A stretch of 42,800 bases of DNA, taken from IMG/VR virus record IMGVR_UViG_3300045282_000103, positions 1 through 42,800 of that record; one strand, written 5' to 3'. Below, piece by piece: positions 1-42,800 of this stretch. The first letter of the stretch is position 1. Each line of letters starts with the position of its first letter. This DNA is from a virus. The translations under genes and the position numbers were made by a program. Below the pieces are notes generated by a model. The model was not told where the DNA came from. It was given only the letters and a program-made list of their open reading frames with translations, and did no database searches.

Positions 1-127
1 GGTCTGACCCTTTCTGCTTCTGAATCAATGCCTGCAAAATTTTGTACTCGTTTTCCGCCGAGGGAGAACGGATATACCTCATAGCCCGGTAAAGCACGGC
101 CTGATTGATAAGCGCCACCAGATTGTC
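1..127. repeat. Terminal direct repeat, left copy (contig closure overlap)
   Basis: These 127 bases are identical to 42674-42800. The repeat lies inside an open reading frame that continues in frame across the join, so the contig closes into a circle of 42,673 bp. A length of exactly 127 equals a k-mer size commonly used by de Bruijn assemblers. I therefore read it as an assembly overlap of a circular or circularly permuted molecule, not as a physical terminal repeat. Confidence 0.95.
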
Positions 128-1024
128 GGGAATGCCCCAGAACTGGTTAAGGCTTGTGAATGCAGCAGTGTCCTGCTGGTAGATGAGGTTCACCATCCAT
201 GTGACCGCTGCCGGGGGGTACATCATGCGGACAAGCAGCACGCCTGTTCCAAAGTCTTTCATCACCGCTACTTGCTCGGGGTCTGCCAGCTTCGACCAGC
301 TAGGAAGGTTCCTCATGGCCGAAAGATGCCGGACATTCATCGGCGAGGAGTTGTTATTCAGCTCCATCATCGTTCCCGATGTCAGCCAGCCGAAGTTTGT
401 GATTCCAGGAGCGCCAAGCACGTCTGCGTTGGCCTGCCCAGAGGCGGCTGCGAAAGTAAAGCTGGTAGGCGTGGGAGTTCCTGTGATGACGTAAGGCCCA
501 GGAGCGCCCCACGCGCATTGGTTGCCATTGTCCGTGAAGCTGGAATTGTACTTGGAGGGCGTACCTTGAGTTCCGGCGACCAACCCGAACAGATAGACGC
601 CATTCCCGACTGCGAAACGATGAGGTTCCAGAGTCTTGACCGTCACGACACCAGCCGCTACGGTCACGCCGTTGTTGGTTGCCAAATCAATCGAAGCGCC
701 ACTCGACTGGACGCCCGTCGAACCCCCTGACGGGGTGATGTTCATCGTAAAGGCAGAAGCCCCAGCGAACAAATAATCCTGCTTAGATTGGTAGACGATG
801 AGCGGCTGACCCGTGCCCTGTGTCAGTCCCAGCGGAGAGCACAACTCCACCGAGTTCCATTTCCAGTCGTTCTCATCGTTGATGATTTCCGAGGCTGCTT
901 CAGAGCAAATGGACAGCCCCGGCTCATCGACAATGCCACCCACCCCACGCAACGGAAGCAAATCCGTGTGCGTCGTGGCGTAATTGATAGTGGTGATTAG
1001 CTTGATGGTGCTGGGGACGGACAT
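1..1024 (-). CDS. Virion structural protein, N-terminal part (gene crosses contig ends)
   Basis: ATG at 1024 overlaps the TAA stop of the upstream gene (TAATG). The frame stays open to base 1 and continues through the closure overlap to the stop at 42588, giving a 369-aa protein. No catalytic motif is visible. The sequence is rich in Gly/Thr/Asn, typical of beta-rich virion proteins, and the C-terminal third has a helical stretch with RAMRYIRSP. It sits between small head-tail genes and the beta-propeller tail protein, so a tail or head-tail accessory role is likely. Any annotation that treats the contig as linear will miss or split this gene. Confidence 0.85.
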   Translation of the reverse strand, partial: MSVPSTIKLITTINYATTHTDLLPLRGVGGIVDEPGLSICSEAASEIINDENDWKWNSVELCSPLGLTQGTGQPLIVYQSKQDYLFAGASAFTMNITPSGGSTGVQSSGASIDLATNNGVTVAAGVVTVKTLEPHRFAVGNGVYLFGLVAGTQGTPSKYNSSFTDNGNQCAWGAPGPYVITGTPTPTSFTFAAASGQANADVLGAPGITNFGWLTSGTMMELNNNSSPMNVRHLSAMRNLPSWSKLADPEQVAVMKDFGTGVLLVRMMYPPAAVTWMVNLIYQQDTAAFTSLNQFWGIPDNLVALINQAVLYRAMRYIRSPSAENEYKILQALIQKQKGSD

Positions 1025-1476
1025 TAGCCGAGCATTTCACCCTGGATTTGAGCGCAATCTTGGAAGAGCTTGTTGAAAAGGGCGGTGTTAAAGATGGCTT
1101 CGGGGTCGAGCTTCGACCACTTGGGATCTTCCGGCCTCACCCGGCCCTGACAGAGCTGACAGAGAATATAGCCAGCGCTATCAAGGTGGTCGTTATCGCG
1201 GACGTGAACGCAATGCGTGCCGCCTCCCGCCTGCTTGCTGTGTTCGTGAGAGCAGCCATGCTCCTGAAACCAGCGGTCATTGACTTTTTTCTTGTTGATG
1301 CTCTCAGCGGTTTCCTTGCGCATTTGCTGCGCCATTTCCAGTTCCGCTAATTGCTGCTTGGTTGGAGGGTCAGGCTCCCGCGCTGTGCGCACCGCTGCCG
1401 TTACCGCGCCATCGATAAGCTCCCGCAAATCTCCCTTGGTGAGAGTAACGCTTGTATCCATTGGATTCTCGCTCAT
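1024..1476 (-). CDS. Conserved-type phage protein with Cys/His cluster, 150 aa
   Basis: The start ATG lies 10 nt after an AAGGAGA ribosome site and overlaps the end of the upstream gene; the TAA stop overlaps the next ATG. The N-terminal half is helical and charged. The middle contains a Cys/His-rich stretch (HGCSHEHSK, THCVHV, CQLCQG) that could bind zinc. It lies in the head-to-tail block between coat and tail genes, so it is probably a minor virion or assembly protein. I cannot assign a family. Confidence 0.8.
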   Translation of the reverse strand: MSENPMDTSVTLTKGDLRELIDGAVTAAVRTAREPDPPTKQQLAELEMAQQMRKETAESINKKKVNDRWFQEHGCSHEHSKQAGGGTHCVHVRDNDHLDSAGYILCQLCQGRVRPEDPKWSKLDPEAIFNTALFNKLFQDCAQIQGEMLG

Positions 1477-2057
1477 TGTCTTGTCTCCTTAAGATATTGG
1501 CCTAATGTGAATTTTTTGGTGGGGGACAACCGCCATTCAAGAGTTTTCTTCATCCATACGCTGTTACGCGGGTCAGTCGCCGGGTCGCCGAATTCCTTGA
1601 TGACTTCCGCATAAGACACTGCCCCGGCAAGAAGCAGCCCGATGAGGATGGTTCTCCAGCCCCTCAAATGTTCTCGCGTGGCGATAAGGCTGGTGTCAAT
1701 GTCAACGTAACCCCACTCGGGGAGTTCTTCTTTCGGCATCCCGCCGACATACTTGTTGAAGATGAAAAATGCGTCCGTCGAATAGCCGCCATCGGTGAGG
1801 GCTTCGTACAACTCATCAGAATTACGGGGATAGTAAAGAGCGATATTCCCCGGTGAGCCTTCCTTCGCGATGAGTTTGGGGCAAATCTTTTGCAGCCTAT
1901 TCAACAGTTCCGCGTAAGAAAGGCAAGCGCCCGTGCTGCGATCAGCGTTCTGTAGTTCTGCTTGGTCTTCGGTGATGTACCGGGAAGCAAGTTTCAGGCA
2001 TTGTTCCCGCAACTTGATGACATTCTCTCGCGGGTCGAGATGGGAATCTCCCAGCAT
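1473..2057 (-). CDS. Hypothetical protein of the head-tail block, 194 aa
   Basis: I start it at ATG 2057, which has an AGG ribosome site 4 nt upstream; a TTG at 2081 would add 8 residues and overlap the upstream gene. The protein is mixed alpha/beta with a hydrophobic stretch, RTILIGLLLAGAVSYAEVI, that could be a membrane segment or buried helix. By position (after coat, before tail genes) it may be a head-tail connector or adaptor. No motif proves this. Confidence 0.75.
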   Translation of the reverse strand: MLGDSHLDPRENVIKLREQCLKLASRYITEDQAELQNADRSTGACLSYAELLNRLQKICPKLIAKEGSPGNIALYYPRNSDELYEALTDGGYSTDAFFIFNKYVGGMPKEELPEWGYVDIDTSLIATREHLRGWRTILIGLLLAGAVSYAEVIKEFGDPATDPRNSVWMKKTLEWRLSPTKKFTLGQYLKETRQ

Positions 2058-2070
2058 ACGCCTGTCTGGT

Positions 2071-2421
2071 TCAAACAACAATGGCTGGCTCTCCTTTGCT
2101 TACCGATTCCACATGCCCGTCTTTATAGACGGCATCAAGGAGTTCAGCCTTGCCGATTACCAATATCGGCCTGCTGGTCCTTGCAGCCCATTCTTTTGCT
2201 AGGGCAATAGCCATGATTTCATCATCTGCCCGTAAGACCATCGGAGCGAATATCCATGCTGTTTCCGCGTCATGGAGGTCGGAAATGACCACGGCGGAAC
2301 AGGGAGTAAGTGACAGCGCAGCCTCAACCGCATCAATGGTCTTGCGGTCAAGGCCACGCGCCATCACGTAGAAGAGTGGGGACAAAACCAGCTCAGGTAA
2401 GTTCTTTGGATTGTCCGCCAC
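2071..2421 (-). CDS. Hypothetical alpha/beta protein, 116 aa
   Basis: Begins at GTG 2421 inside the end of the preceding gene and ends 13 nt before the next start. No clear Shine-Dalgarno is visible for the GTG, so the true start could be internal (ATG near residue 20). Alternating hydrophobic strands (SAVVISDLHD, RPILVIGKAELLDAV) suggest a small alpha/beta fold. It belongs to the set of small genes directly downstream of the coat gene. Function not recognised. Confidence 0.7.
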   Translation of the reverse strand: MADNPKNLPELVLSPLFYVMARGLDRKTIDAVEAALSLTPCSAVVISDLHDAETAWIFAPMVLRADDEIMAIALAKEWAARTSRPILVIGKAELLDAVYKDGHVESVSKGEPAIVV

Positions 2422-2647
2422 GGGTCACGTTTCCTGTAGCTGTCAAGCTGCTGCTGACGGTCCCGCCGAGGGTTGTCACCTTCTGCGAGGCCATGTTGGG
2501 GTTGAACTTAACGGTTGCCACCAAGGCTCCCGCTTCTGTGGTTTTCGGAGAACTAGAGCCAGTATTGGTCTGGCCGGGGAAGAAGTTGACTTCATTGCTG
2601 ATGTAGATGTTTCCGTTCGAGTAAATCAACAGATACATTGAGGCCAT
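2393..2647 (-). CDS. Small beta-rich protein directly downstream of coat, 84 aa
   Basis: I choose ATG 2647, preceded by AAAGGAC, over a longer in-frame start at 2689 that would read through the stable hairpin after the coat stop. The protein is Thr/Ser/Gly-rich with strand-like segments (SMYLLIYSNGNIYISNEVNF) and no charged core. Its position and composition suit a head decoration or stabilising protein, but that is inference. Confidence 0.75.
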   Translation of the reverse strand: MASMYLLIYSNGNIYISNEVNFFPGQTNTGSSSPKTTEAGALVATVKFNPNMASQKVTTLGGTVSSSLTATGNVTRGGQSKELT

Positions 2648-2667
2648 CGTTTGTCCTTTCGGGGGAA

Positions 2668-2683
2668 GGGGGCCGAAGCCCCC
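2668..2683 (-). terminator. UUCG-capped hairpin 6 nt after the coat stop
   Basis: On the minus strand this reads GGGGGC-TTCG-GCCCCC, a perfect 6-bp G-C stem with the extra-stable UUCG tetraloop. It begins 6 nt after the coat stop codon. No U-tract follows, so it is more likely a partial attenuator or 3'-end mRNA stabiliser that sets coat dosage relative to downstream genes than a full terminator. Confidence 0.75.
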
Positions 2684-2689
2684 ACCCAT

Positions 2690-3626
2690 TTACCCGATGC
2701 TCGACTCAATTCTGAATCGGCGGAAGTGGTTGATGGAGTTGCTGGTATCAGGCGAAGTAACCACCCCGTAGAAGAAGTTATAGAAAGCCGCAGCCGCAAT
2801 CAGGCCAGCCACGTCAATGGAATTGCCCTGGTCGTAGCGGCGAACCGTGACGCTGAAGTTCTTCTGGTTGAGGTTCGTTCGTCCGAGAGAACTGGCGATC
2901 ATGGCCTGCCAACCCACGATGTAAACGCAGTAGGCGTTCTTCGTGGTGGATTGCCAGCTTGCGATGGAGGTTGTGGCGTTGGATTCGTAAAACTCCACGC
3001 CGCCAATGTTGCCGATGCGCTGGCCCTTGATGCCCGCAAATGCCGGGTTATCGCTGGCCAGGGTTTCGGAATACTTCTGCAAGTCGAGAAAGCCACCTGC
3101 AGAAGCATCATTCACGGCGTCGTAGGCGTTCAGCGAGTTCATAATCCCGAAGAACAATCCGTTCTTCTTGGGCTTTACGTCCTTGCTGCGCAACTGCCAT
3201 GCGCCCTTGCGGGCGAGGGCCGCTGTGAAGTAGGTTCCATCATTCACGTCAATGTTGGCCACGGCGTCGCCGTTGGCGGCGACATCATAGGCAACCATCG
3301 TGACGTTATCGACGGATAATGCTCCGCGATAGGCAAGCAAGGCCGCGCCCTCGGCAACCGTATCGCTGATGGCCGTCAGCACTACTTTGTTGCTGAAGCT
3401 GACATAATCGGCGTAGTTGGCGAGGTTGATGGTCTTGGTTTGCTGGGTGAGCGATTGACCAGCAGCGGGAGTGCCTTCTGTTACCGCTGTGGTGTTTGCG
3501 CCCAGCTTGAGGTAGTTGAAAACCTGCATGGCGACACCCGACATATCGGGCATAACCTTGAGTTCGCAACTTGGATAAAAGAACAGATTCGCTTGGAGCA
3601 CGTCAAGGGACACACGGTCGTAATAG
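2690..3626 (-). CDS. Major coat protein, exon 2 (P22 coat-like, HK97 fold)
   Basis: Exon 2 supplies residues 21-331 of the major capsid protein, starting YYDRVSLDV. The coding pattern (ANLFFYPSCELKVMP, NYADYVSFSNKV, AYRGALSVDNVT, GLFFGIMNSLNAYD, GIKGQRIGNIGGVEFYESNA) matches P22 coat-type phage capsids. Read alone, it looks like a 307-aa protein starting at GTG 3613 with no ribosome site, because an in-frame stop lies just upstream within the intron. Joining it to exon 1 (4346-4288) gives exactly 996 nt, 331 aa plus stop. A strong hairpin follows the stop. The scaffold gene lies directly upstream, as expected for this capsid family. Confidence 0.9.
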
Positions 3627-4287
3627 TCTTGGTGTTAACTTTCGGATTTCCCGAAAGAGCGGACTATACCATCTGTTCGATTGCGTAAGAATGCTGCGCA
3701 ACGCAAACAGGAATGCTCTTAGTCTCTGAGGACTCGCGGAGATTTCGCTTTGCGTCTGCGATGTCATGGTCTTCCTGTGTGTACGGATTGTGCCCATTAT
3801 TGCCAAGCTTCACAGGACGGACTTCTTTTGGTCGCAGTCGATGCAGGACAAATTTCTTGACTAAGGCTGCTTCAGCTTTTTTCTTTCCAAACAGATAAGG
3901 CTCCAAGATTTCTACCATTTTCAAAACTTCATCGTAATGATGCACGATGATTTGGTAGCAGCCTTGAGAGTTCTGCCGGATGTGATGATGAATCCCGAGA
4001 GAACCTTGCCATTCACAAATAGCGTCAACCAGAATGGGGTCGGTATTACTGAATCCGACTTCCGCACTGAATTGCCACTTATTGTTTTTTTTCTGTTCTT
4101 TCCAAACACTGAAATGCCCTTCGCCTAGGTACAGCCCTGCTATGATTTCCACGTTAGGAATCATCGTTTCTCCGATTGCCTGCGGATTGTCCATTGATAC
4201 AGCTATCTTCAACATTTTACCTTATTAGGAGTTGAAGTTTTAGGAGTTTCCCGCATATCGCATTCTTTAACCACGGCCTATTCGTTG
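3627..4287 (-). ncRNA. Group I self-splicing intron in the coat gene
   Basis: Paired elements visible on the minus strand: P1 CUACGGU (4294-4288) with GCCGUGG (4277-4271), putting the hallmark U-G pair at the 5' splice site; P10 AAUAG (4282-4278), directly adjacent, with exon-2 CUAUU (3626-3622); P3 GAAUGC (4265-4260) with GCAUUC (3716-3711); P4 UGCGG (4255-4251) with CCGCA (4185-4181); P5 CUUCAAC (4237-4231) with GUUGAAG (4213-4207); P7 GACUA (3724-3720) with UAGUC (3666-3662); P8 UUGCGU (3706-3701) with ACGCAA (3686-3681); P9 CUUUCGG (3657-3651) with CCGAAAG (3645-3639). The order is canonical. The endonuclease ORF lies between the P4-P6 region and P7. Confidence 0.9.
3664..4164 (-). CDS. 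LAGLIDADG homing endonuclease encoded in the intron
   Basis: A 166-aa protein with one LAGLIDADG motif near its N-terminus (IIAGLYLGEGHF), so it would act as a homodimer that cuts intronless coat alleles and spreads the intron. The Gly-Glu-Gly at the motif end supplies the usual acidic residue. I choose ATG 4164, which has CGGAGA 5 nt upstream; an in-frame ATG at 4215 lies within P5 and lacks a ribosome site. The UAG stop (3666-3664) is itself part of the P7 3' strand, so the last 20 codons double as ribozyme core. The C-terminal half is basic. Base use is more A/T-rich than in neighbouring genes, which fits a mobile origin. Confidence 0.9.
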   Translation of the reverse strand: MIPNVEIIAGLYLGEGHFSVWKEQKKNNKWQFSAEVGFSNTDPILVDAICEWQGSLGIHHHIRQNSQGCYQIIVHHYDEVLKMVEILEPYLFGKKKAEAALVKKFVLHRLRPKEVRPVKLGNNGHNPYTQEDHDIADAKRNLRESSETKSIPVCVAQHSYAIEQMV

Positions 4288-4346
4288 ACCGTAGGGTACC
4301 CTGCGAGTCCCGAGCTGACTACCGATGCTGCTGTTGGTAGAGCCAA
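4288..4346 (-). CDS. Major coat protein, exon 1 (20 codons, TTG start)
   Basis: AAAGGAG (4360-4354) lies 7 nt upstream of TTG 4346. The reading frame gives MALPTAASVVSSGLAGYPTV and then, unspliced, two more codons and a TAG stop. Joining after ACGGT (4288) to 3626 gives YPTV-YYDR and continues into the coat. This N-terminal arm plus the strong ribosome site explains why exon 2 has no proper start. The exon is too short for ordinary ORF callers. It lies 21 nt after the scaffold stop. Confidence 0.85.
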
Positions 4347-4367
4347 TTCGATTCTCCTTTACAGGGA

Positions 4368-5276
4368 TTAACGCGCAGCCATCTGCTTATTGGCGAGCCT
4401 CTTCAGCTCCTCCAACGGCATTTTGTATGCGTCGTCCTCAGTTGGTTCGGCTGGCGGGGGTGCCGGAGCTACCCGGCTGTGCGTCCCGATAGTCGATACC
4501 TTCTTTGTCCTCTGCTGCGCTGGAACAGGTGGAGGCGGAGCAATCCGTTCCGTTTCCTCCACTGTTTCTTCCGCGACAGGGTTTGCCTCTTCGCCCTTCA
4601 AAGCGAGCAATCCGCTCTCTTTCAAGTGCAAGTACGCCTTTGCCAGATTTTCCGAAGTTACCGGAAGCCGTAGTTCGGCGAGTTTCATCCTCATCAACTT
4701 CCCGTTCTTGTCGCCGACTGTGCCAGCATCCTCATAATCAGGGTGCATGGCCACAAAAGTTGAGATTGCCTCGGTGGTGGCAGTAGCCGTCTGATAAGCG
4801 TCAGCGGCCTGCTTCATGGTTTGGAACTCTTCGGGCTTCATGCCCGTGACTTCCTCGAACATCTTGCGGAAAGTCGCTTTCGGCATCTTGCTGAACTCTT
4901 GCGCGAGGACATACTCCTCGTCGGCAGTCGGTTCCTTGGGTGCCGTACGTTCCGCGTTCTTCGCCCGCAAGTCACGCAGTTCCGCTTCTTGTGCGCGAAT
5001 CTTGATGGTGGCGTTTTTCTGGGCATCGGCAATCTTGTCGGAGAGGGCTTCGAGAGCTGCTTCCTTCGACTCGCCTTCCGCCTCGAATACCTGCACTCCC
5101 GAGCCATCGCCAAGGTCAATCTCTCGGCTGGCCATGAAGACTTCCTGCTCTTCCGTCGCTGGTTCCGGCACGGGAGGTGTCTCTTCTTCTTTCTTGCCTG
5201 CCAGTTCCTCGTTGGCCAAGAGTTTCAGTTGCTTGGCATCCATCTTTTCCATTTCTTCTGCCGTGTGCTTCGCCAT
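4368..5276 (-). CDS. Capsid scaffolding-like protein, 302 aa
   Basis: Highly charged and Glu/Lys/Ala-rich, with predicted coiled-coil helices (residues ~65-110) and low-complexity Pro/Glu segments (residues ~30-45, 235-285). It sits between the portal-proximal gene and the coat, where tailed phages place the scaffold. ATG 5276 overlaps the previous stop (TAATG). The C-terminus is basic (LKRLANKQMAAR), as expected for a coat-binding scaffold tail. Assigned from position and composition, since scaffolds diverge fast. Confidence 0.75.
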   Translation of the reverse strand: MAKHTAEEMEKMDAKQLKLLANEELAGKKEEETPPVPEPATEEQEVFMASREIDLGDGSGVQVFEAEGESKEAALEALSDKIADAQKNATIKIRAQEAELRDLRAKNAERTAPKEPTADEEYVLAQEFSKMPKATFRKMFEEVTGMKPEEFQTMKQAADAYQTATATTEAISTFVAMHPDYEDAGTVGDKNGKLMRMKLAELRLPVTSENLAKAYLHLKESGLLALKGEEANPVAEETVEETERIAPPPPVPAQQRTKKVSTIGTHSRVAPAPPPAEPTEDDAYKMPLEELKRLANKQMAAR

Positions 5277-5551
5277 TACATCACCACCTCTATGAAAGTA
5301 TCGGCTGGCTCTTCGCCAGCCTTTAGAAGCTCAATCATCTGCAACCACTGCGCCCAGAACTTACGCGCTCCCCGCGCATCATGCCGGAAGGTCTTGGCCT
5401 TTTCTTCGTCATCCTCTTGCAAACTCTTCTGCTCGATGGCATAAATCGTTTCTTCGGCAATCTGGCGCATTATCGGCCAGCTATCGTCTGCTGTGATACG
5501 CAGAAACGCTCGTTTTACTGCTAGTTTTTGCTGCTCATTACGGAACTCCAT
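5276..5551 (-). CDS. Small helical protein between portal and scaffold, 91 aa
   Basis: ATG 5551 lies inside the end of the portal gene behind a strong AAGGAGGCAAGG ribosome site. The protein is helical with alternating basic and acidic runs and several Trp/Phe residues (FWAQWLQMIELL). It ends VVM with a TAATG overlap into the scaffold gene. Likely a small head-assembly accessory; no family recognised. Confidence 0.75.
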   Translation of the reverse strand: MEFRNEQQKLAVKRAFLRITADDSWPIMRQIAEETIYAIEQKSLQEDDEEKAKTFRHDARGARKFWAQWLQMIELLKAGEEPADTFIEVVM

Positions 5552-7514
5552 CCTTGCCTCCTTCCAGAGCCGCTAATCCGGCTGTTTCATCGCGCTTCAC
5601 CACCGATTTAAGAACCGCAAGCTGGCCTTGTGCCGCTGCTTTCTGGTCGATGGAGTCGAGGTCCGCTTGATGCTTTACGCTCGTTTGCAGGACTTTCCCC
5701 ATCGCTGCCTGCATGGCCTGGTTCTTTTGCTGCATCCGCTGCAAATCTTCCGGTGTGAGGTTTATGAAATACTCGGATTCCGTCCCGAGGCCCGCCGATT
5801 CAAACAATTCCTCGGTCCATGTCGCGTAATCAAACTTCTTGCCCTGTACTTGCAAGGAATCCTGTACTGCCTGATTCGCCAGGAACTGCATGAAGATCGG
5901 AGCAAGCTGGAGAGCCGCGTGCTTTGCCGTGAGTTTCGTTCCACCGATGATTTCAATGTCATAATCTGCGTTGTAGATGTCGAGAATTTCTCCTGCGTAG
6001 GCTTTTCCGTCTTCGCGGGAGAGAATCTGGTTGATTTCATCGGGTTGCAGGTTTTCATGGCAATGAATGAGGAAGGTTTCAAGTACCGGGATGAAAACTA
6101 GCTCCAGATATTGCTCGATGAAGTATTGCAACCGCTGGGTGATGTCACCTTGGAAGGCTTGGACGCCTGAGCCTGTACGGAGCGCCTGTGTCGGCATCTG
6201 CGTGCCGCCCTCAGCCCCGATTCTACGGTAAGCCCGCATCTGGCTGGCTTCCATAGCGGCCAGAGCGCTTTGCTGGATGTCCTGAACCACCAGGGGTTTC
6301 AGTTCCGATTCGACGGTAGTGACTTTTCCGGGGGCAATGACGATATTTTGCCCCGAGCTGGTCATGCCCTTGACCATCTGGAAGCTCGGATTCAGCAGAA
6401 TGGCCAAACCGTCCACGGAAGTATTCAGCACTCCTTGCTGGAAGCGCTGCTCGCCATTCAGAAGAGCAGGAATCCCCAATCCGAACATGGAATTGAGCAC
6501 GTCGATGAACGCGCACCCATGAACGCCAAGTTTCCCGGTTTTATTCTCTTCGTTACGGATGACTATTTTCCTCTGCAACACCGTAACAACGCGCTGCCTC
6601 GTCCGGTATTCCACAAGTTCCATAGGCCCCATGAGCGGGTCTTTGCTCGAAGGAATTTTGTCATCTTGCGCCTGATATTCCCGCGTCTGATTCGGCTTTA
6701 GCGGCTGCATTGAATCTTTGGCAATCTCCTGCTTGCCAGCCAGAATCGTCGCTAGTGCCTCACGCGTGGGAATGTTCTTGTAAGTGTCGTCATCCCGCAT
6801 ATCATCCAGATCATAGGCGGTGATTTGGATGCGCTTCGCAATCCAGCGCCCGGAGTTCGGGTCTTGATTCGGGCAGGACGGGTCGAAAATGATATTTCGC
6901 AGGTTGCCGTTCTCGTAGGTCGGCTTCTGGACGGTCTTTGGCGGGAGCTCCCCGTTGCGACTGACCTTTCCATCGTCGCTCTTGACATATTTTCTCTGCT
7001 CGATTTCGTCAATTTCCCAGCCATCGAATCCGCATCCGAATCCGTACTGCAAAATAGTCTTAAGCGTCAGCCGCGAGCCTTCCTTGAAGTCCGAAACCTT
7101 CACTGCCCAACGCAAAAGGTTCTGGTTGGCTTCTGCTGCTTCTGCTCTAGTGTTGCCTTTCCTTGTGACTTGATACGGGTCCTTGCCGCTGCCCCAGAGC
7201 GAGAGATAAATCACCGGCATCAGCTTTTCGATGGCTTCAAGGCAGACCGGTACGGAAAGAGCGGAGCGGGCTTTGTCGCTGTTTGGCCATGGACGAACAC
7301 GGACATATCCGCGAATCAGATCATCGGCAGTTTCAATGCGCGTGATGAAGTTCTTGGCTTGCTCGAACGCAATTCCAGCATCAATGTCGCCAAGCACGAT
7401 GCCGAGGGCCGTAATATCGTCCCACGGTTCGGTAAATTCCACCTTCTCGGCGGTTACCGGCGCCTGTGCTTGCTGTTCTGAAATTGCAGTGTCGAGGGTT
7501 TCTAGTCCAGCCAT
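5538..7514 (-). CDS. Portal protein (P22-type), 658 aa
   Basis: Directly follows the large terminase (TGA, one base, ATG) and has the length of podovirus-type portals. Typical portal stretches include RVRPWPNSDKARSALSVP, QYGFGCGFDGWEIDE, NIIFDPSCPN and a long C-terminal helical, Gln-rich region (residues ~570-650) like the P22 portal barrel. It would form the 12-mer channel at one capsid vertex that docks terminase and then the tail. Start supported by coupling to the terminase stop. Confidence 0.9.
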   Translation of the reverse strand: MAGLETLDTAISEQQAQAPVTAEKVEFTEPWDDITALGIVLGDIDAGIAFEQAKNFITRIETADDLIRGYVRVRPWPNSDKARSALSVPVCLEAIEKLMPVIYLSLWGSGKDPYQVTRKGNTRAEAAEANQNLLRWAVKVSDFKEGSRLTLKTILQYGFGCGFDGWEIDEIEQRKYVKSDDGKVSRNGELPPKTVQKPTYENGNLRNIIFDPSCPNQDPNSGRWIAKRIQITAYDLDDMRDDDTYKNIPTREALATILAGKQEIAKDSMQPLKPNQTREYQAQDDKIPSSKDPLMGPMELVEYRTRQRVVTVLQRKIVIRNEENKTGKLGVHGCAFIDVLNSMFGLGIPALLNGEQRFQQGVLNTSVDGLAILLNPSFQMVKGMTSSGQNIVIAPGKVTTVESELKPLVVQDIQQSALAAMEASQMRAYRRIGAEGGTQMPTQALRTGSGVQAFQGDITQRLQYFIEQYLELVFIPVLETFLIHCHENLQPDEINQILSREDGKAYAGEILDIYNADYDIEIIGGTKLTAKHAALQLAPIFMQFLANQAVQDSLQVQGKKFDYATWTEELFESAGLGTESEYFINLTPEDLQRMQQKNQAMQAAMGKVLQTSVKHQADLDSIDQKAAAQGQLAVLKSVVKRDETAGLAALEGGKDGVP

Positions 7515-7515
7515 G

Positions 7516-9213
7516 TCAGCAGGCGAAATCCGCTCCCATCGTCTGTTGGTCCGTTATAACCTCTTCGGGCTGCGGCTCTATCGGCAGCATCGGTTCCTGA
7601 CCGAGAATCTGAATCATGTCCTTCTGCCGCGTCAGGACGCCGTGTTCGTCCACGTCGTAGACATCGTGCGGCCCGGCATTGATTTGTTTTGGCGCGATGT
7701 TCAGATAACGCACCGCGTAGACATTGCACATCAGCGCCATCGTATCGGGATAATCGTCGTGGGCGTGTTTCACGCTGGCCTGGAATTGGACGCTTTGCTT
7801 GACTAACTTATCCCAGTAGGAAAGGCCCACGAAGAACTTCAAACGGCCTCCCTTGACGTGCCCGGCGTAGGTTTTTACCCGCGTGGCTTTGGCGCCTTTG
7901 CGGTTATCGACTTTGATATAGTCGAGCGGAAGGTTAAGACCAAGATCGCGTACAGCCATGCGTAGGTATTCCACAAAGTATTTCGCAGAGGCCGTCTCCT
8001 CGATGAGAATCTTTGCAGGCCGCACCTTCAGCGCATATCTGATGACTATCGCGCCTAGCTGTGGGATGCTCCACGGGCCGCCTTCTCCGCCAACCGCATA
8101 AATTGTTCCCTGCGCATCTGTCTTGCCTTCGATGATGACGGAATCATCCGGCTCGGTGTCGCCCTCGGCGGCCAGGTCGATGAAGAGAATCGAGGAACTG
8201 AGCGGCGGAGCCTGATGCGGGAGAATCGTGGCCCGTTGCATATCCTCTTCAAGAAGGATTTGCTGGCTTTCGAGCATCGGCTTGTTGAGATACTGGCTGG
8301 CATAGACGCCCGGACTGTCCCGCTTCACCTGCCAGAGAATCGCTGGAGTGAAACCGTGTACGTTCCCATCCTTGCCTACGCTTTGCGGGAAACGCGGAAT
8401 ACCGGCAGGTTCGTTGTCATCTTTCCATGCTGTCGTGATGCTTACTCTCCACTCCGCATGGGCAGGTCCCGATACTCTCTTGGTTCGTTCCACAATCACG
8501 TCGTACAAGTCGCCGAACGCATACCGAGTCCCACTGACAAACCGGGGGCAGCCTGGGTCAATCAGCGGGAAACACATATCGAAATCGTCTTGCACTTTCT
8601 TTAGCATTGCTCGGGAACGATAGTTCTGGTCATTCACCAAATCGTCGAAGATGCCAAGTTTGAAGTGTTGCCCGGTCTTGATGGTCTTAGGACTGGCCAC
8701 CGTGACAGTCGCTTGAGGAATCTGCATTCGCTGGCGGGCCGGAGTAACGAAGGAATTCCTGGTTAGCTGTAAGTCCTGTTTCGTGGGATGGGGATTCCCG
8801 CGTTTCGGTTTGTGGCAAAATTCCGGAAATATTTCGAGCAATCGGCTACCTTGCGCCGTGCCCAGGAAATGCGAAGCAATCTCTTTCAGGCGTTCTTGGG
8901 TGTTCTTGATGTTGCCCTGCATGATGAGAATGGGGATGTCCGGGAAAATCAGGATGGCCTGAATGACGATTACCACCATGACGGCGGTAGTCTTGAAATG
9001 TCCGCGTGCCCAGAGAATCAGAACGTCGCGCTGCTCGAACTGCCACGGCTGGCCTTCGGCAAACGGCGGATATTGGTCGAAGAGTTCCTGATGCGTATCG
9101 GGACTGAAATCGTAGCCAAGAATCTCATTAGCTAAATACATCCGGTCAATCTTCGCCCGCGCTCGCTCGTCTTTATACTTTTCAGGAGCGCGGATGATAC
9201 GCGGCGTCGCCAC
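7516..9213 (-). CDS. terL: Terminase large subunit, 565 aa
   Basis: ATPase plus nuclease motor that packages DNA. Walker A-like ARGHFKTT (residues 69-76) and Walker B LGIFDD (186-191) lie in the N-terminal ATPase. The RNase H-like nuclease follows, with ILFIDLAAEGD (D346), ILIEETASA (E405/E406) and a late Asp in DDYPDTMALM. Walker A has Phe instead of the usual Gly/Ser before Lys, which occurs in some podoviral terminases. GTG start overlaps the upstream TAG (TAGTG). No separate small subunit is obvious; one of the small genes just upstream may serve. Confidence 0.95.
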   Translation of the reverse strand: MATPRIIRAPEKYKDERARAKIDRMYLANEILGYDFSPDTHQELFDQYPPFAEGQPWQFEQRDVLILWARGHFKTTAVMVVIVIQAILIFPDIPILIMQGNIKNTQERLKEIASHFLGTAQGSRLLEIFPEFCHKPKRGNPHPTKQDLQLTRNSFVTPARQRMQIPQATVTVASPKTIKTGQHFKLGIFDDLVNDQNYRSRAMLKKVQDDFDMCFPLIDPGCPRFVSGTRYAFGDLYDVIVERTKRVSGPAHAEWRVSITTAWKDDNEPAGIPRFPQSVGKDGNVHGFTPAILWQVKRDSPGVYASQYLNKPMLESQQILLEEDMQRATILPHQAPPLSSSILFIDLAAEGDTEPDDSVIIEGKTDAQGTIYAVGGEGGPWSIPQLGAIVIRYALKVRPAKILIEETASAKYFVEYLRMAVRDLGLNLPLDYIKVDNRKGAKATRVKTYAGHVKGGRLKFFVGLSYWDKLVKQSVQFQASVKHAHDDYPDTMALMCNVYAVRYLNIAPKQINAGPHDVYDVDEHGVLTRQKDMIQILGQEPMLPIEPQPEEVITDQQTMGADFAC

Positions 9214-9497
9214 TAGAGTTCGGTAATCTCCGGGCGACCGCTCATGTCCGTGCGGCTGAGGCGACCGATGTCGGCATCGTCGTTGTTCATCATGCCGCGT
9301 TCCTGAAGTTTTGCGCGGGCGGGACCGTCATCGAATTCCTTTATGTCCGCCTGGTGGCCCTGCGTGGAGTTCAATTCCGTGCAATCGTTGTCGTTCATGC
9401 CTTCGCCAGCCATGCCTTCTTTCTGCGTGGAGCGAAGCTCAGAGACGGTCGGAAGCACGTAGCTGTTGCGGTCGTTGACGGTTGAGATTTTAGCCAT
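9213..9497 (-). CDS. Hydrophilic protein before terminase, 94 aa
   Basis: Very polar protein rich in Asn/Asp/Gly/Arg with no hydrophobic core, likely disordered. ATG 9497 overlaps the previous TGA (TGATG), and the stop overlaps the terminase GTG. Genes directly upstream of terL often encode the small terminase, but this one lacks an obvious helix-turn-helix, so I leave it as hypothetical. Confidence 0.7.
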   Translation of the reverse strand: MAKISTVNDRNSYVLPTVSELRSTQKEGMAGEGMNDNDCTELNSTQGHQADIKEFDDGPARAKLQERGMMNNDDADIGRLSRTDMSGRPEITEL

Positions 9498-9703
9498 CAG
9501 CTCTGCCCCATCACCTTTGTCGGGATTTCATGGGCCGCAAGGCTGTGATGCTCCTTCTTGTCCATTGTCCCGTCGCTGTCTCCGTCGTTCAGGTGATTAT
9601 TGAGTGTGCCCTGATGCGGAGATTTCTTGCGTCCCTTAGCGACGACGGGCGTGCCAGGGATGTTGCTGCTGGGGGTGAAGATTTTTGCTTTGCCTGTAGC
9701 CAT
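9497..9703 (-). CDS. Small basic hydrophilic protein, 68 aa
   Basis: ATG 9703 follows AAGGAGAAAATCA, clearly better than in-frame starts further upstream that overlap the neighbouring gene. Lys/His/Asn-rich and probably unstructured (AKGRKKSPHQ, NNHLNDGDSDG). With the next gene it forms a pair of polar proteins ahead of terminase. Function unknown. Confidence 0.75.
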   Translation of the reverse strand: MATGKAKIFTPSSNIPGTPVVAKGRKKSPHQGTLNNHLNDGDSDGTMDKKEHHSLAAHEIPTKVMGQS

Positions 9704-9714
9704 TGATTTTCTCC

Positions 9715-10056
9715 TTATCTTTCGACGTACTGCGTTGTGACATTGAAACCGGAAGCGTTTACCGAAGCTGTGATGGTCCAAGCCTTGTTGGGCAGGGATT
9801 GCGCCAGCGGAGTGTCAAAAGTAACGATGAATGGAGCACTGGGAGCAGCCGCCGCATCTGGATAGTTGAAGATAGCAACCGTCTTGTTGCCATCGCTGAT
9901 AGTCAGCGTAGCAGCGGCGGCGTTCGGCGTGGTAATTGTCAGGGAAGCGATGTCCCGGTAAATGGTGGCGTTGCCGCTGGCGGGAAGGAAAGTCACTGCT
10001 CCCGTTCCCGCTACCGCAGCCTGAGTTACTTGGGCAAATTGTGCGTTTGACGGCAT
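9715..10056 (-). CDS. Beta-sandwich-like structural protein, 113 aa
   Basis: ATG overlaps the preceding TAA (TAATG), with GGGGAAG as ribosome site. Alternating Thr/Val/Ala strands (SLTITTPN, AAATLTISDGN, TWTITASVNASGFNVTTQYV) suggest a small beta-sandwich such as a capsid decoration or minor head protein. Short proteins of this kind are common next to head genes. The assignment rests on composition and position only. Confidence 0.7.
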   Translation of the reverse strand: MPSNAQFAQVTQAAVAGTGAVTFLPASGNATIYRDIASLTITTPNAAAATLTISDGNKTVAIFNYPDAAAAPSAPFIVTFDTPLAQSLPNKAWTITASVNASGFNVTTQYVER

Positions 10057-10256
10057 TATTTCTTCCCCATTGCTGTGAGGCCCTTGGCGGATGCGGCCAT
10101 GCGGCGCACGGCAGGCTTGCTGCTCTTGAGCGCGGAACTGATTTTTGCCTGCCCGAGTTTCTGGCCCGTGGGGACGCCTAGAGCGCGGTGCAAGGCTCCG
10201 GGCCTTACCTTGAAGCTGCCCTTTTTGCCCAAGGATACGGTTTTTGTTTTAGCCAT
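10056..10256 (-). CDS. Small strongly basic protein, 66 aa
   Basis: GAGGAGAAGC lies upstream of ATG 10256. Lys/Arg/Ser/Gly-rich with almost no acidic residues (KTVSLGKKGSFKVRPGALH). Such small cationic proteins can bind nucleic acid or sit inside heads. The stop overlaps the next start. Function inferred only from charge. Confidence 0.7.
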   Translation of the reverse strand: MAKTKTVSLGKKGSFKVRPGALHRALGVPTGQKLGQAKISSALKSSKPAVRRMAASAKGLTAMGKK

Positions 10257-10848
10257 GAATTGCTTCTCCTCGAATCAAGATAGCGTGACCTCGAATACCT
10301 TCGTGCCAATGATGGATTTCTGTGTGCGGAAAATCGAACCATGGCCCCGGAGGATATATGTCCTCGATGATGTACAGGCCGCGAGGGTCGAGCAGTTTGG
10401 ACAAGACCTGGAACGTTAGGAGCTGGTCTTCCGGCTTGTGGCTGCCATCATCCACGATCAAATCAAACTTCCCGCCAAGCGCCAACGCGGGCAGAGCGTC
10501 CAGCAAATCCGCTTCATAGGACTGGTCCACGCGATGCGTCAGGATGCGGTCACCGAATGGGGTATTGACCGCTGCGGCGTCCTTGTCGATGCCATGAATC
10601 TCGGCGTTCGGGAAGTAATCCTTCCACATCCTGAGGCTTGCTCCGGGGCAATAGTTGGGAACGTGGGCCATTGCCGTGGGAGTGCCTATGCCAACCTCCA
10701 GAACCTTGTAAACCTTTTCGCGGCGGGCCGAAAAGAGCAGGTCATAGAAGGGGGTGTAGACGCCCAGCTTGTCGGTTCCGTAATACTCCGCAAGGCGGCA
10801 GAGTTCCGTCAGGCAGCTACGAGTTGATAGCTGTTCTTCAATTCCCAT
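10249..10848 (-). CDS. Class I SAM-dependent methyltransferase, 199 aa
   Basis: Rossmann motif I VLEVGIGTP (around residue 50), an acidic residue in EIHGIDKD (motif II), DLIVDDGSH (motif IV) and LDPRGLYIIEDI later. This pattern matches the macrocin/mycinamicin sugar O-methyltransferase (CmcI/TylF-like) group, so the substrate is probably a sugar. It overlaps the end of the glycosyltransferase gene by 40 nt, which suggests they act on the same glycan. The start has no clear ribosome site and may depend on translational coupling. Confidence 0.85.
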   Translation of the reverse strand: MGIEEQLSTRSCLTELCRLAEYYGTDKLGVYTPFYDLLFSARREKVYKVLEVGIGTPTAMAHVPNYCPGASLRMWKDYFPNAEIHGIDKDAAAVNTPFGDRILTHRVDQSYEADLLDALPALALGGKFDLIVDDGSHKPEDQLLTFQVLSKLLDPRGLYIIEDIYPPGPWFDFPHTEIHHWHEGIRGHAILIRGEAIHG

Positions 10849-12209
10849 AGCTTTTTCATTTGAGACGGAAAGACGGCGTGCATCGAGACGATCTCTTCGG
10901 TGATTTTGCTTACATCGAAGCTAAGTCCATCGCCAAAGAAGAAGTGCGCCGAGAACCCGGGCCGGTGGTTCTGTAGATTGACCGGCAGGATGTTGTGCTC
11001 GGCAAGAACCCGACTGACATGGACATCCTCAGCGTAGGGGTGCCGCCAGGCTTCGCCATGCGTAGCGATAATCGAAGCGGCATGGGCTGATAGGAAGTAG
11101 CCCGGCCCTCCGGAACAGACAGAGGCATGGAGATACCCGGCATAGTCGAAGGCGTTCTCCATCATCTCGACCAGCAACTTTTCGGCATAGACCCAGGTAT
11201 CGGTATCGCATTTATAGATAAACTCGTAGCCGTGTTCCGTGGCCCAACGGCACAACCCTACGGATTTGTCGATGAGGTTCCCGTAACCGTCTTTGCAGTC
11301 GAGGAACACTTCATCTGGCAATGATTCTCGGGGGTATCCCCCGGCAGGCTTGCCGTAGAAGAAACGAACATCCACATTCCTAAATGGCTTGAAGTCTTGG
11401 ACCCAGGTCTCACGGCAGGTTTGGGTTTGTTCGTTCGGGCCATTTACGTGCATGTCCTTTCCGTATTCCGGGTTCCCTTTGTGCTCCCAGGTGCCTTCGT
11501 AGTCGAGTCGGAAACATGTTGGAACTGCGATAAGTATTTTTGGAAGTGGAGGCAGCTCCTCGACTGAACGGGACCGATTTCCTCCGATGTGGGTAACAAT
11601 CGGCCGTCCCAAGTCCGCGATGCGATAGCCTTGGTCGAGGAGTTGCTTAGAGAGGATTTGCTCATGTTCGAGTCCTTTCAGGCCCACAGAAGATAGAACT
11701 TGTGGCAGCAGCTTGAGCAGCGTGTCACGACGCCGTAGCCCTGGGTTCCAGCTCCAGCCGCCCCAGACGCCTCGCCAGTACGGCTCGGCTATCCAGACAT
11801 CGCCAGACCTGACAAGCGGATGCCAGCCGGAAGCCCCGCGTAGGGAAACCTGAACCACTTCAGGATGGGCCTCAAGGATGGCCTTCGACTCCCGCATGAA
11901 TGGGCTGATCTGGTTCTGCCACAGCCAGTCCTCTTCCGACCAGAACACGTAATCGTGCTTCGCTTCCTGAATCAATCGTGCCACGGCAAAGCACTGCCCC
12001 ATGCGGGTCTTGCCGCTAATCCACCGCACGTTCCTGGTACGCCAAACATCCCCGGCCAGGAACTCCGGCTTAGGCCCATCCGAATCCTCGTAGATGATTA
12101 CTTCCTGTGGCTCCTGGTCCACCACCGCGTAAAAGCTGCCCAGCGAGGCTTCGAGCAGGTCATTCCGCCCGCAAGCCGTAATCAGCATGGAGATATTGGT
12201 GTTAGGCAT
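10809..12209 (-). CDS. Two-domain glycosyltransferase (GT2-like + GT31-like), 466 aa
   Basis: N-terminal half (1-215) begins ISMLITACGRNDLLEASL and has an acidic SEED at 91-94, like a GT-A family 2 enzyme. C-terminal half (~222-450) begins KILIAVPTC and carries VFLDCKDGYGNLIDKSVG, then YKCDTDTWV with a DTD metal site (335-337), then HASVCSGGPGYFLSAHAAS, the order seen in beta-1,3-galactosyltransferase-like GT31 enzymes. It would add one or two sugars to a phage or host acceptor. It is the second gene after the intergenic control region and is coupled to a sugar methyltransferase. Two catalytic domains of different families in one phage protein is unusual. Confidence 0.85.
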   Translation of the reverse strand: MPNTNISMLITACGRNDLLEASLGSFYAVVDQEPQEVIIYEDSDGPKPEFLAGDVWRTRNVRWISGKTRMGQCFAVARLIQEAKHDYVFWSEEDWLWQNQISPFMRESKAILEAHPEVVQVSLRGASGWHPLVRSGDVWIAEPYWRGVWGGWSWNPGLRRRDTLLKLLPQVLSSVGLKGLEHEQILSKQLLDQGYRIADLGRPIVTHIGGNRSRSVEELPPLPKILIAVPTCFRLDYEGTWEHKGNPEYGKDMHVNGPNEQTQTCRETWVQDFKPFRNVDVRFFYGKPAGGYPRESLPDEVFLDCKDGYGNLIDKSVGLCRWATEHGYEFIYKCDTDTWVYAEKLLVEMMENAFDYAGYLHASVCSGGPGYFLSAHAASIIATHGEAWRHPYAEDVHVSRVLAEHNILPVNLQNHRPGFSAHFFFGDGLSFDVSKITEEIVSMHAVFPSQMKKLWELKNSYQLVAA

Positions 12210-42587: not shown

Positions 42588-42800
42588 TTAAAAGCCACCA
42601 GTACCCATCCAGAACGGCCCGTAATCAATCAGGGAATCCACCGGCTCAAGAAACACATTCGACTGCTCGGCCTGGTCTGACCCTTTCTGCTTCTGAATCA
42701 ATGCCTGCAAAATTTTGTACTCGTTTTCCGCCGAGGGAGAACGGATATACCTCATAGCCCGGTAAAGCACGGCCTGATTGATAAGCGCCACCAGATTGTC
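42588..42800 (-). CDS. Virion structural protein, C-terminal part (gene crosses contig ends)
   Basis: C-terminal 70 codons and stop of the 369-aa protein that starts at 1024. This segment includes the conserved-looking block YRAMRYIRSPSAENEYKIL and ends in MGTGGF. The in-frame GTG near 42791 could be mistaken for a start of a 67-aa protein, but the frame is open upstream once the circle is closed. The next gene starts 22 nt after this stop. Confidence 0.85.
   Translation of the reverse strand, partial: DNLVALINQAVLYRAMRYIRSPSAENEYKILQALIQKQKGSDQAEQSNVFLEPVDSLIDYGPFWMGTGGF
42674..42800. repeat. Terminal direct repeat, right copy (contig closure overlap)
   Basis: Exact second copy of bases 1-127. 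With P22-type portal and coat proteins, headful packaging of circularly permuted DNA would give this kind of closed assembly. That packaging mode is inferred from family resemblance and is not shown directly. Confidence 0.95.

Follow-up and report, generated by a model that had tools for sequence, protein, structure and literature searches.

Evidence for a LAGLIDADG-encoding group I intron in the N4-gp56-family major capsid gene of a phage

The phage genome analysed here very probably has codon 20 of its major capsid gene, which is of the N4-gp56 type, interrupted by a mobile group I intron. The intron would be spliced out to give the mRNA of a 331-aa coat protein and would home by means of a LAGLIDADG protein. 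The DNA, an IMG/VR virus record of 42,800 nucleotides (hereafter the window), has identical first and last 127 bases (1-127 and 42674-42800) and is therefore a circularly complete phage genome of ~42.7 kb. The evidence supports a major capsid gene of the N4-gp56 family on its minus strand that is split by a group I intron encoding a LAGLIDADG endonuclease (Table 1).

Table 1. Elements of the split coat gene and its intron, in window coordinates
Feature	Position	Strand	Basis
Shine-Dalgarno AAAGGAG of the coat gene	4354..4360	-	sequence; intronless L002 has one too
Coat exon 1, TTG start at 4346, 19 codons + 2 nt; LALPTAASVVSSGLAGYPTV after joining to exon 2	4288..4346	-	matches uninterrupted N-termini of coat relatives; in-frame join
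Group I intron, 661 nt	3627..4287	-	exact insertion relative to L002/G001; core statistics; model R1
Coat exon 2, 937 nt including stop	2690..3626	-	TIGR04387; phrog_1357
Internal guide sequence AAUAGGCCGUGG	4271..4282	-	GCCGUGG with exon 1 end (P1); AAUAG with exon 2 start CUAUU (P10)
P1	4294-4288/4277-4271	-	seven pairs, U4288.G4277 at the 5' splice site
P10	4282-4278/3626-3622	-	AAUAG/CUAUU, contiguous with P1
P3 5' strand GAAUGC	4260..4265, partner 3716-3711	-	complementary P3 at equal spacing in eight other introns
P4 (4255-4250/4186-4181), P5 and P5 side hairpin (4237-4207)	4181..4255	-	sub-threshold RF00028; pattern common to 22 viral loci
P6 3' strand CUCCG, pairing with CGGAG 4174-4170	3737..3741	-	sequence; inference
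P7	3724-3720/3666-3662	-	sequence pairing
P8	3710-3673	-	sequence pairing
P9	3657-3639	-	sequence pairing
Ribozyme 3' half: CAGAGACUA (R/P7), P3', P8, J8/7, UAGUC (P7'), P9	3639..3728	-	model R1 matches the window here only
LAGLIDADG homing endonuclease ORF, 166 aa, single motif IAGLYLGEG	3664..4164	-	PF00961; Shine-Dalgarno GGAG 4173-4170

A sequence-only reading of the window had proposed that the N-terminus of the coat protein is encoded by a separate exon 1 of 20 codons, with AAAGGAG and a TTG start, 661 bp upstream of an exon 2 whose own frame is stopped just upstream. Both elements are present. A TAA at 3637-3635, four codons ahead of TAT, closes exon 2's own frame, in which the first start codon is the GTG at 3613. 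Exon 1, read on into the intron, runs into a stop after 22 codons (directly behind ...YPTVNE). Joining 4288 to 3626 reproduced the proposed single open frame of 996 nt and 331 aa. The exon 2 product scores 77.4 bits against TIGR04387 (N4-gp56 major capsid; curated cut-off 60) and also matches phrog_1357. An intein was considered and rejected, as 661 nt is no multiple of 3 and a stop comes straight after exon 1.

The split-gene reading is further backed by relatives of the coat. A scan with the coat protein identified a locus with a 96% identical coat (L002), in which the gene is uninterrupted and has an exact empty site, with CCTACGGT directly followed by CTATTACG, i.e. CCTACGGTCTATTACG. The two genomes align colinearly over window positions 1-12209, an alignment broken only at 3626 and 4287. 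In a profile scan, the YPTV/I-YYDR-type sequence was uninterrupted in all 21 coat loci with a readable site, which include a few mutual duplicates. Relatives with an uninterrupted N-terminus unlike the exon 1 peptide had been named beforehand as the finding that would speak against a split gene; the N-termini of these loci match the peptide. Compared with the G001 genome, the structural half is colinear at 72-81% identity, and ~20 kb of the window (12210-32800) have little nucleotide similarity to it.

Between exon 2 and its L002 counterpart, 109 codons differ synonymously and 11 non-synonymously (dN 0.032, dS 0.86, dN/dS ~0.04). These values point to strong purifying selection on exon 2 and hence to a functional coat, from which the insertion would have to be removed at the RNA level. 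With stop codons in the way and exon 2 under such selection, dependence of a functional coat on splicing would follow. The 50 nt before the insertion site are 98% identical to L002; as identity in the flanks is only mildly raised, we make no claim of a co-conversion signature.

All of the pairings drawn in the sequence-only reading (P1, P3, P4, P5, P7, P8, P9 and P10) could be located, and the core they form is intact. P1 and P10 share one continuous 10-nt guide; a guide of this type is present in the first 40 nt of only 31 of 20,000 dinucleotide shuffles. A descriptor comprising P3, P4, P7, P8 and P9 scores 77 for the intron, a value reached by none of 1,000 shuffles (best score 72). Other phage introns were gathered by the exact P4/P5 pattern. 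Eight of them share the joiner lengths J3/4=4 and J7/3=3 with the window, and P3 covaries among the nine introns, being complementary in the eight others and mostly of different sequence. In pair counts on alignment A2, P7 was kept in 8/8, while P9, the columns of which are misaligned by one, was unsupported.

A covariance-model search had been suggested as a check, and its outcome was divided. The general Rfam model RF00028 detects only the P4-P5 piece of the region (16.3 bits, E 0.37; gathering score 50), and cmscan of the whole window, the region and each half gave no Rfam match above the gathering score; the 3' half alone was without any Rfam match. A long ORF interrupts the core, and the gathering score is a cut-off for annotation, not a property that defines group I introns. 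By contrast, a covariance model of the 3' half that was built from eight phage introns with the window excluded (model R1) has a single match in the 42.8 kb, at 3728-3639 (22.9 bits, E 2.6e-4, with rough calibration), and none in the intronless L002-L004. Together with the core statistics and the P1/P10 guide, this independently built model upholds the group I assignment. Standard annotation, which relies on the longest ORF from a start codon and on the Rfam gathering score, would leave the coat 24 residues short and miss the intron.

If weight is given only to the missing confident Rfam match, the insertion might be read as a free-standing endonuclease gene that has landed in the coat gene and inactivated it. 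We regard this as highly improbable, given the ribozyme core, the P1/P10 guide, an insertion placed exactly at the predicted splice junction and a coat that is still under purifying selection.

In group I introns the last base is almost always G. The contig sequence at the 3' splice site is AAGACTATT, and the in-frame join places A3627 at the intron end, in agreement with the L002 empty site, the frame and P10. The resulting junction, CCTACGGTCTATTAC / CCTACGGTCTATTACG, would have Val as codon 20. The terminal A was absent from the sequence-only description. According to a 2025 database, group I introns 'most frequently' have G as the last base (PMC11835236), and beyond this source and PMC4227781 we found no direct statement in the literature on natural non-G intron ends. 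Moving only the 3' site to the G one base upstream would shift the coat frame and lead to a stop after 27 codons.

Should both splice sites instead lie one base upstream, exon 1 would end in ACGG, the intron would run from U to G, exon 2 would start with AC, and the junction would read CCTACGGACTATTACG. The canonical terminal G would thereby be restored, in a product of equal length and frame with GAC (Asp) in place of Val as codon 20. Splicing after G has a precedent in BcISt1 (PMC4227781), one of the group B IStrons, whose displaced, non-U 5' splice site would be comparable under this placement of the sites only; these elements carry a transposase and not a homing endonuclease. However, the shift would cost the 5' splice site its U.G pair and leave an A facing a G between P1 and P10. 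Moreover, this residue is a conserved Val or Ile in 21/21 coat loci, and the L002 empty site has T at this position. We therefore consider the two-site shift rather unlikely. A base-calling or assembly error, with an extra A at 3627 and a true intron end at G, would make the sole anomaly vanish, but the site lacks a homopolymer, where such errors are commonest, and we judge this improbable. Based on the sequence, A as the end base would rank first, with the two-site shift and the base error about equal behind it.

The terminal A could also be a mutation in an intron that is decaying or poorly spliced, in a phage that is handicapped or a contig that represents a mixed population. The A is found despite an ordinary G-C as the guanosine-binding pair of P7, which would fit such decay. 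Yet the core, P1, P10, the frame and the endonuclease ORF are all intact, and exon 2 bears the mark of strong purifying selection, making decay quite improbable. We favour a splicing intron that would end in A; if cDNA confirms it, this end could probe the strictness of the terminal-G rule.

The claim that the intron encodes a LAGLIDADG endonuclease holds: the ORF contains the motif IAGLYLGEG and scores above the cut-off against PF00961 (28.2 bits, cut-off 23.1), and searches against the PDB gave weak matches to LAGLIDADG enzymes. Among the viral contigs and plasmids searched there were no close relatives, and four Streptomyces phages gave weak matches. An AlphaFold2 model from one sequence had a mean pLDDT of 50.5 and was left unused. 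The start is probably at 4164, behind the GGAG, and not at the ATG of the longest frame at 4215. The TAG stop sits within the 3' strand of P7, and the ribozyme core therefore also codes for the C-terminus, as has been described in other group I introns (PMC3984707). When folded, the ribozyme would mask the ribosome site of the endonuclease, since this site belongs to P6 (4174-4170 with 3741-3737).

We infer that the intron is spliced in vivo and that its protein is an active endonuclease with the coat junction as its target. The pre-mRNA would fold the ribozyme, and a guanosine cofactor would cut after U4288, positioned by P1. The freed exon 1 would then attack the 3' splice site, which P10 keeps in place, yielding the mRNA for the 331-aa coat. 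The LAGLIDADG protein, probably acting as a homodimer because it has one LAGLIDADG motif, would cleave the exon junction of coat alleles that lack the intron, and the intron would be copied in during mixed infection. The intron phage and its intronless relative with a 96% identical coat are well suited to tests of homing and of splicing in an abundant transcript.

The window intron is a well-supported addition to the known capsid-gene introns; the novelty implied by the sequence-only reading was overstated. Splicing of a capsid intron was already shown in 2013 for the mycobacteriophage LittleE, whose intron, probably of group I, is spliced in infected cells, as demonstrated by RT-PCR and N-terminal sequencing (PMC3706429). 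As in the window, a LAGLIDADG gene lies in an intron of the major capsid gene and relatives are intronless. In contrast to the window, the LittleE endonuclease is encoded on the opposite strand, its intron is ~819 bp long with a G end, and the capsid belongs to a different family. The spliced LittleE coat also shows that a phage can tolerate an intron on which all of its capsids depend. The timing switch that had been suggested for the window intron is needless, and no timing role need be assumed. Group I introns also occur in the MCP of crAss-like phages, one MCP being in five fragments (PMC7886860), although these are large gut phages.

A second, independent intron lies in the window's own coat family. 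A coat relative with 76% identity (L013:1-296) carries a group I intron that is distinct from the window's and contains an HNH gene, inside which the contig breaks off. It is located ~26 codons into the part corresponding to exon 2, just before residue 27 of the latter, apparently has G at its end, and is matched by model R1 at 175-241 (E 3e-6).

Kin introns were fetched by core pattern and not by gene (L033-L054, L055-L132 and L133-L201). Those of the first two sets resemble the window intron in their P4/J4-5 and P7 motifs, in their J3/4 and J7/3 lengths and in often residing in capsid genes. They differ in sequence and insertion sites, many carry HNH genes, and their 3' ends resemble UAACAAAnUG, compared with UAACACCAAGA in the window. 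In the first set, eight exons match major-head PHROGs, with L052 as a ninth. The pattern CCTCAGAGACTN{20,50}GATATAGTCCGA retrieved 79 loci, from which 62 different 3' exons were obtained. Kinship to annotated major head proteins was seen for 32 of them, and direct matches to major-head PHROGs added another seven, giving 39/62. One portal and one cold-shock gene stand against these 39. This proportion is above expectation even if the capsid gene made up a tenth of every contig. With the second core pattern (L133-L201), 22 of 42 distinct cases adjoin major-head-protein exons; both counts are to be read with the caveats that IMG/VR favours contigs with hallmark genes, that the two patterns select related cores, and that 3' exons were chosen by a mechanical rule, which in some of the other cases gave an endonuclease ORF instead of an exon.

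Several unrelated PHROG capsid families are involved and the 3' exons begin at different points. The adjacency of this core type to major-head-protein exons appears to be what is new here, and the concentration suggests that introns of phages often find refuge in capsid genes. More tentatively, and with the odds against it, the core type may effectively be a capsid-gene specialist that enters unrelated families at many sites, with a window copy that is a natural group I intron ending in A and yet spliced efficiently enough to provide the most abundant virion protein. One further locus (L033:2112-6496) has five R1 matches within 4.4 kb on one strand, beside an SU10-type major capsid exon, and its capsid region apparently holds several group I introns. 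In L054, ~300-400 nt after the P7 motif region, the intron is followed by what looks like the 3' half of a tRNA gene ending in CCA, and the core type may thus also sit in a tRNA gene.
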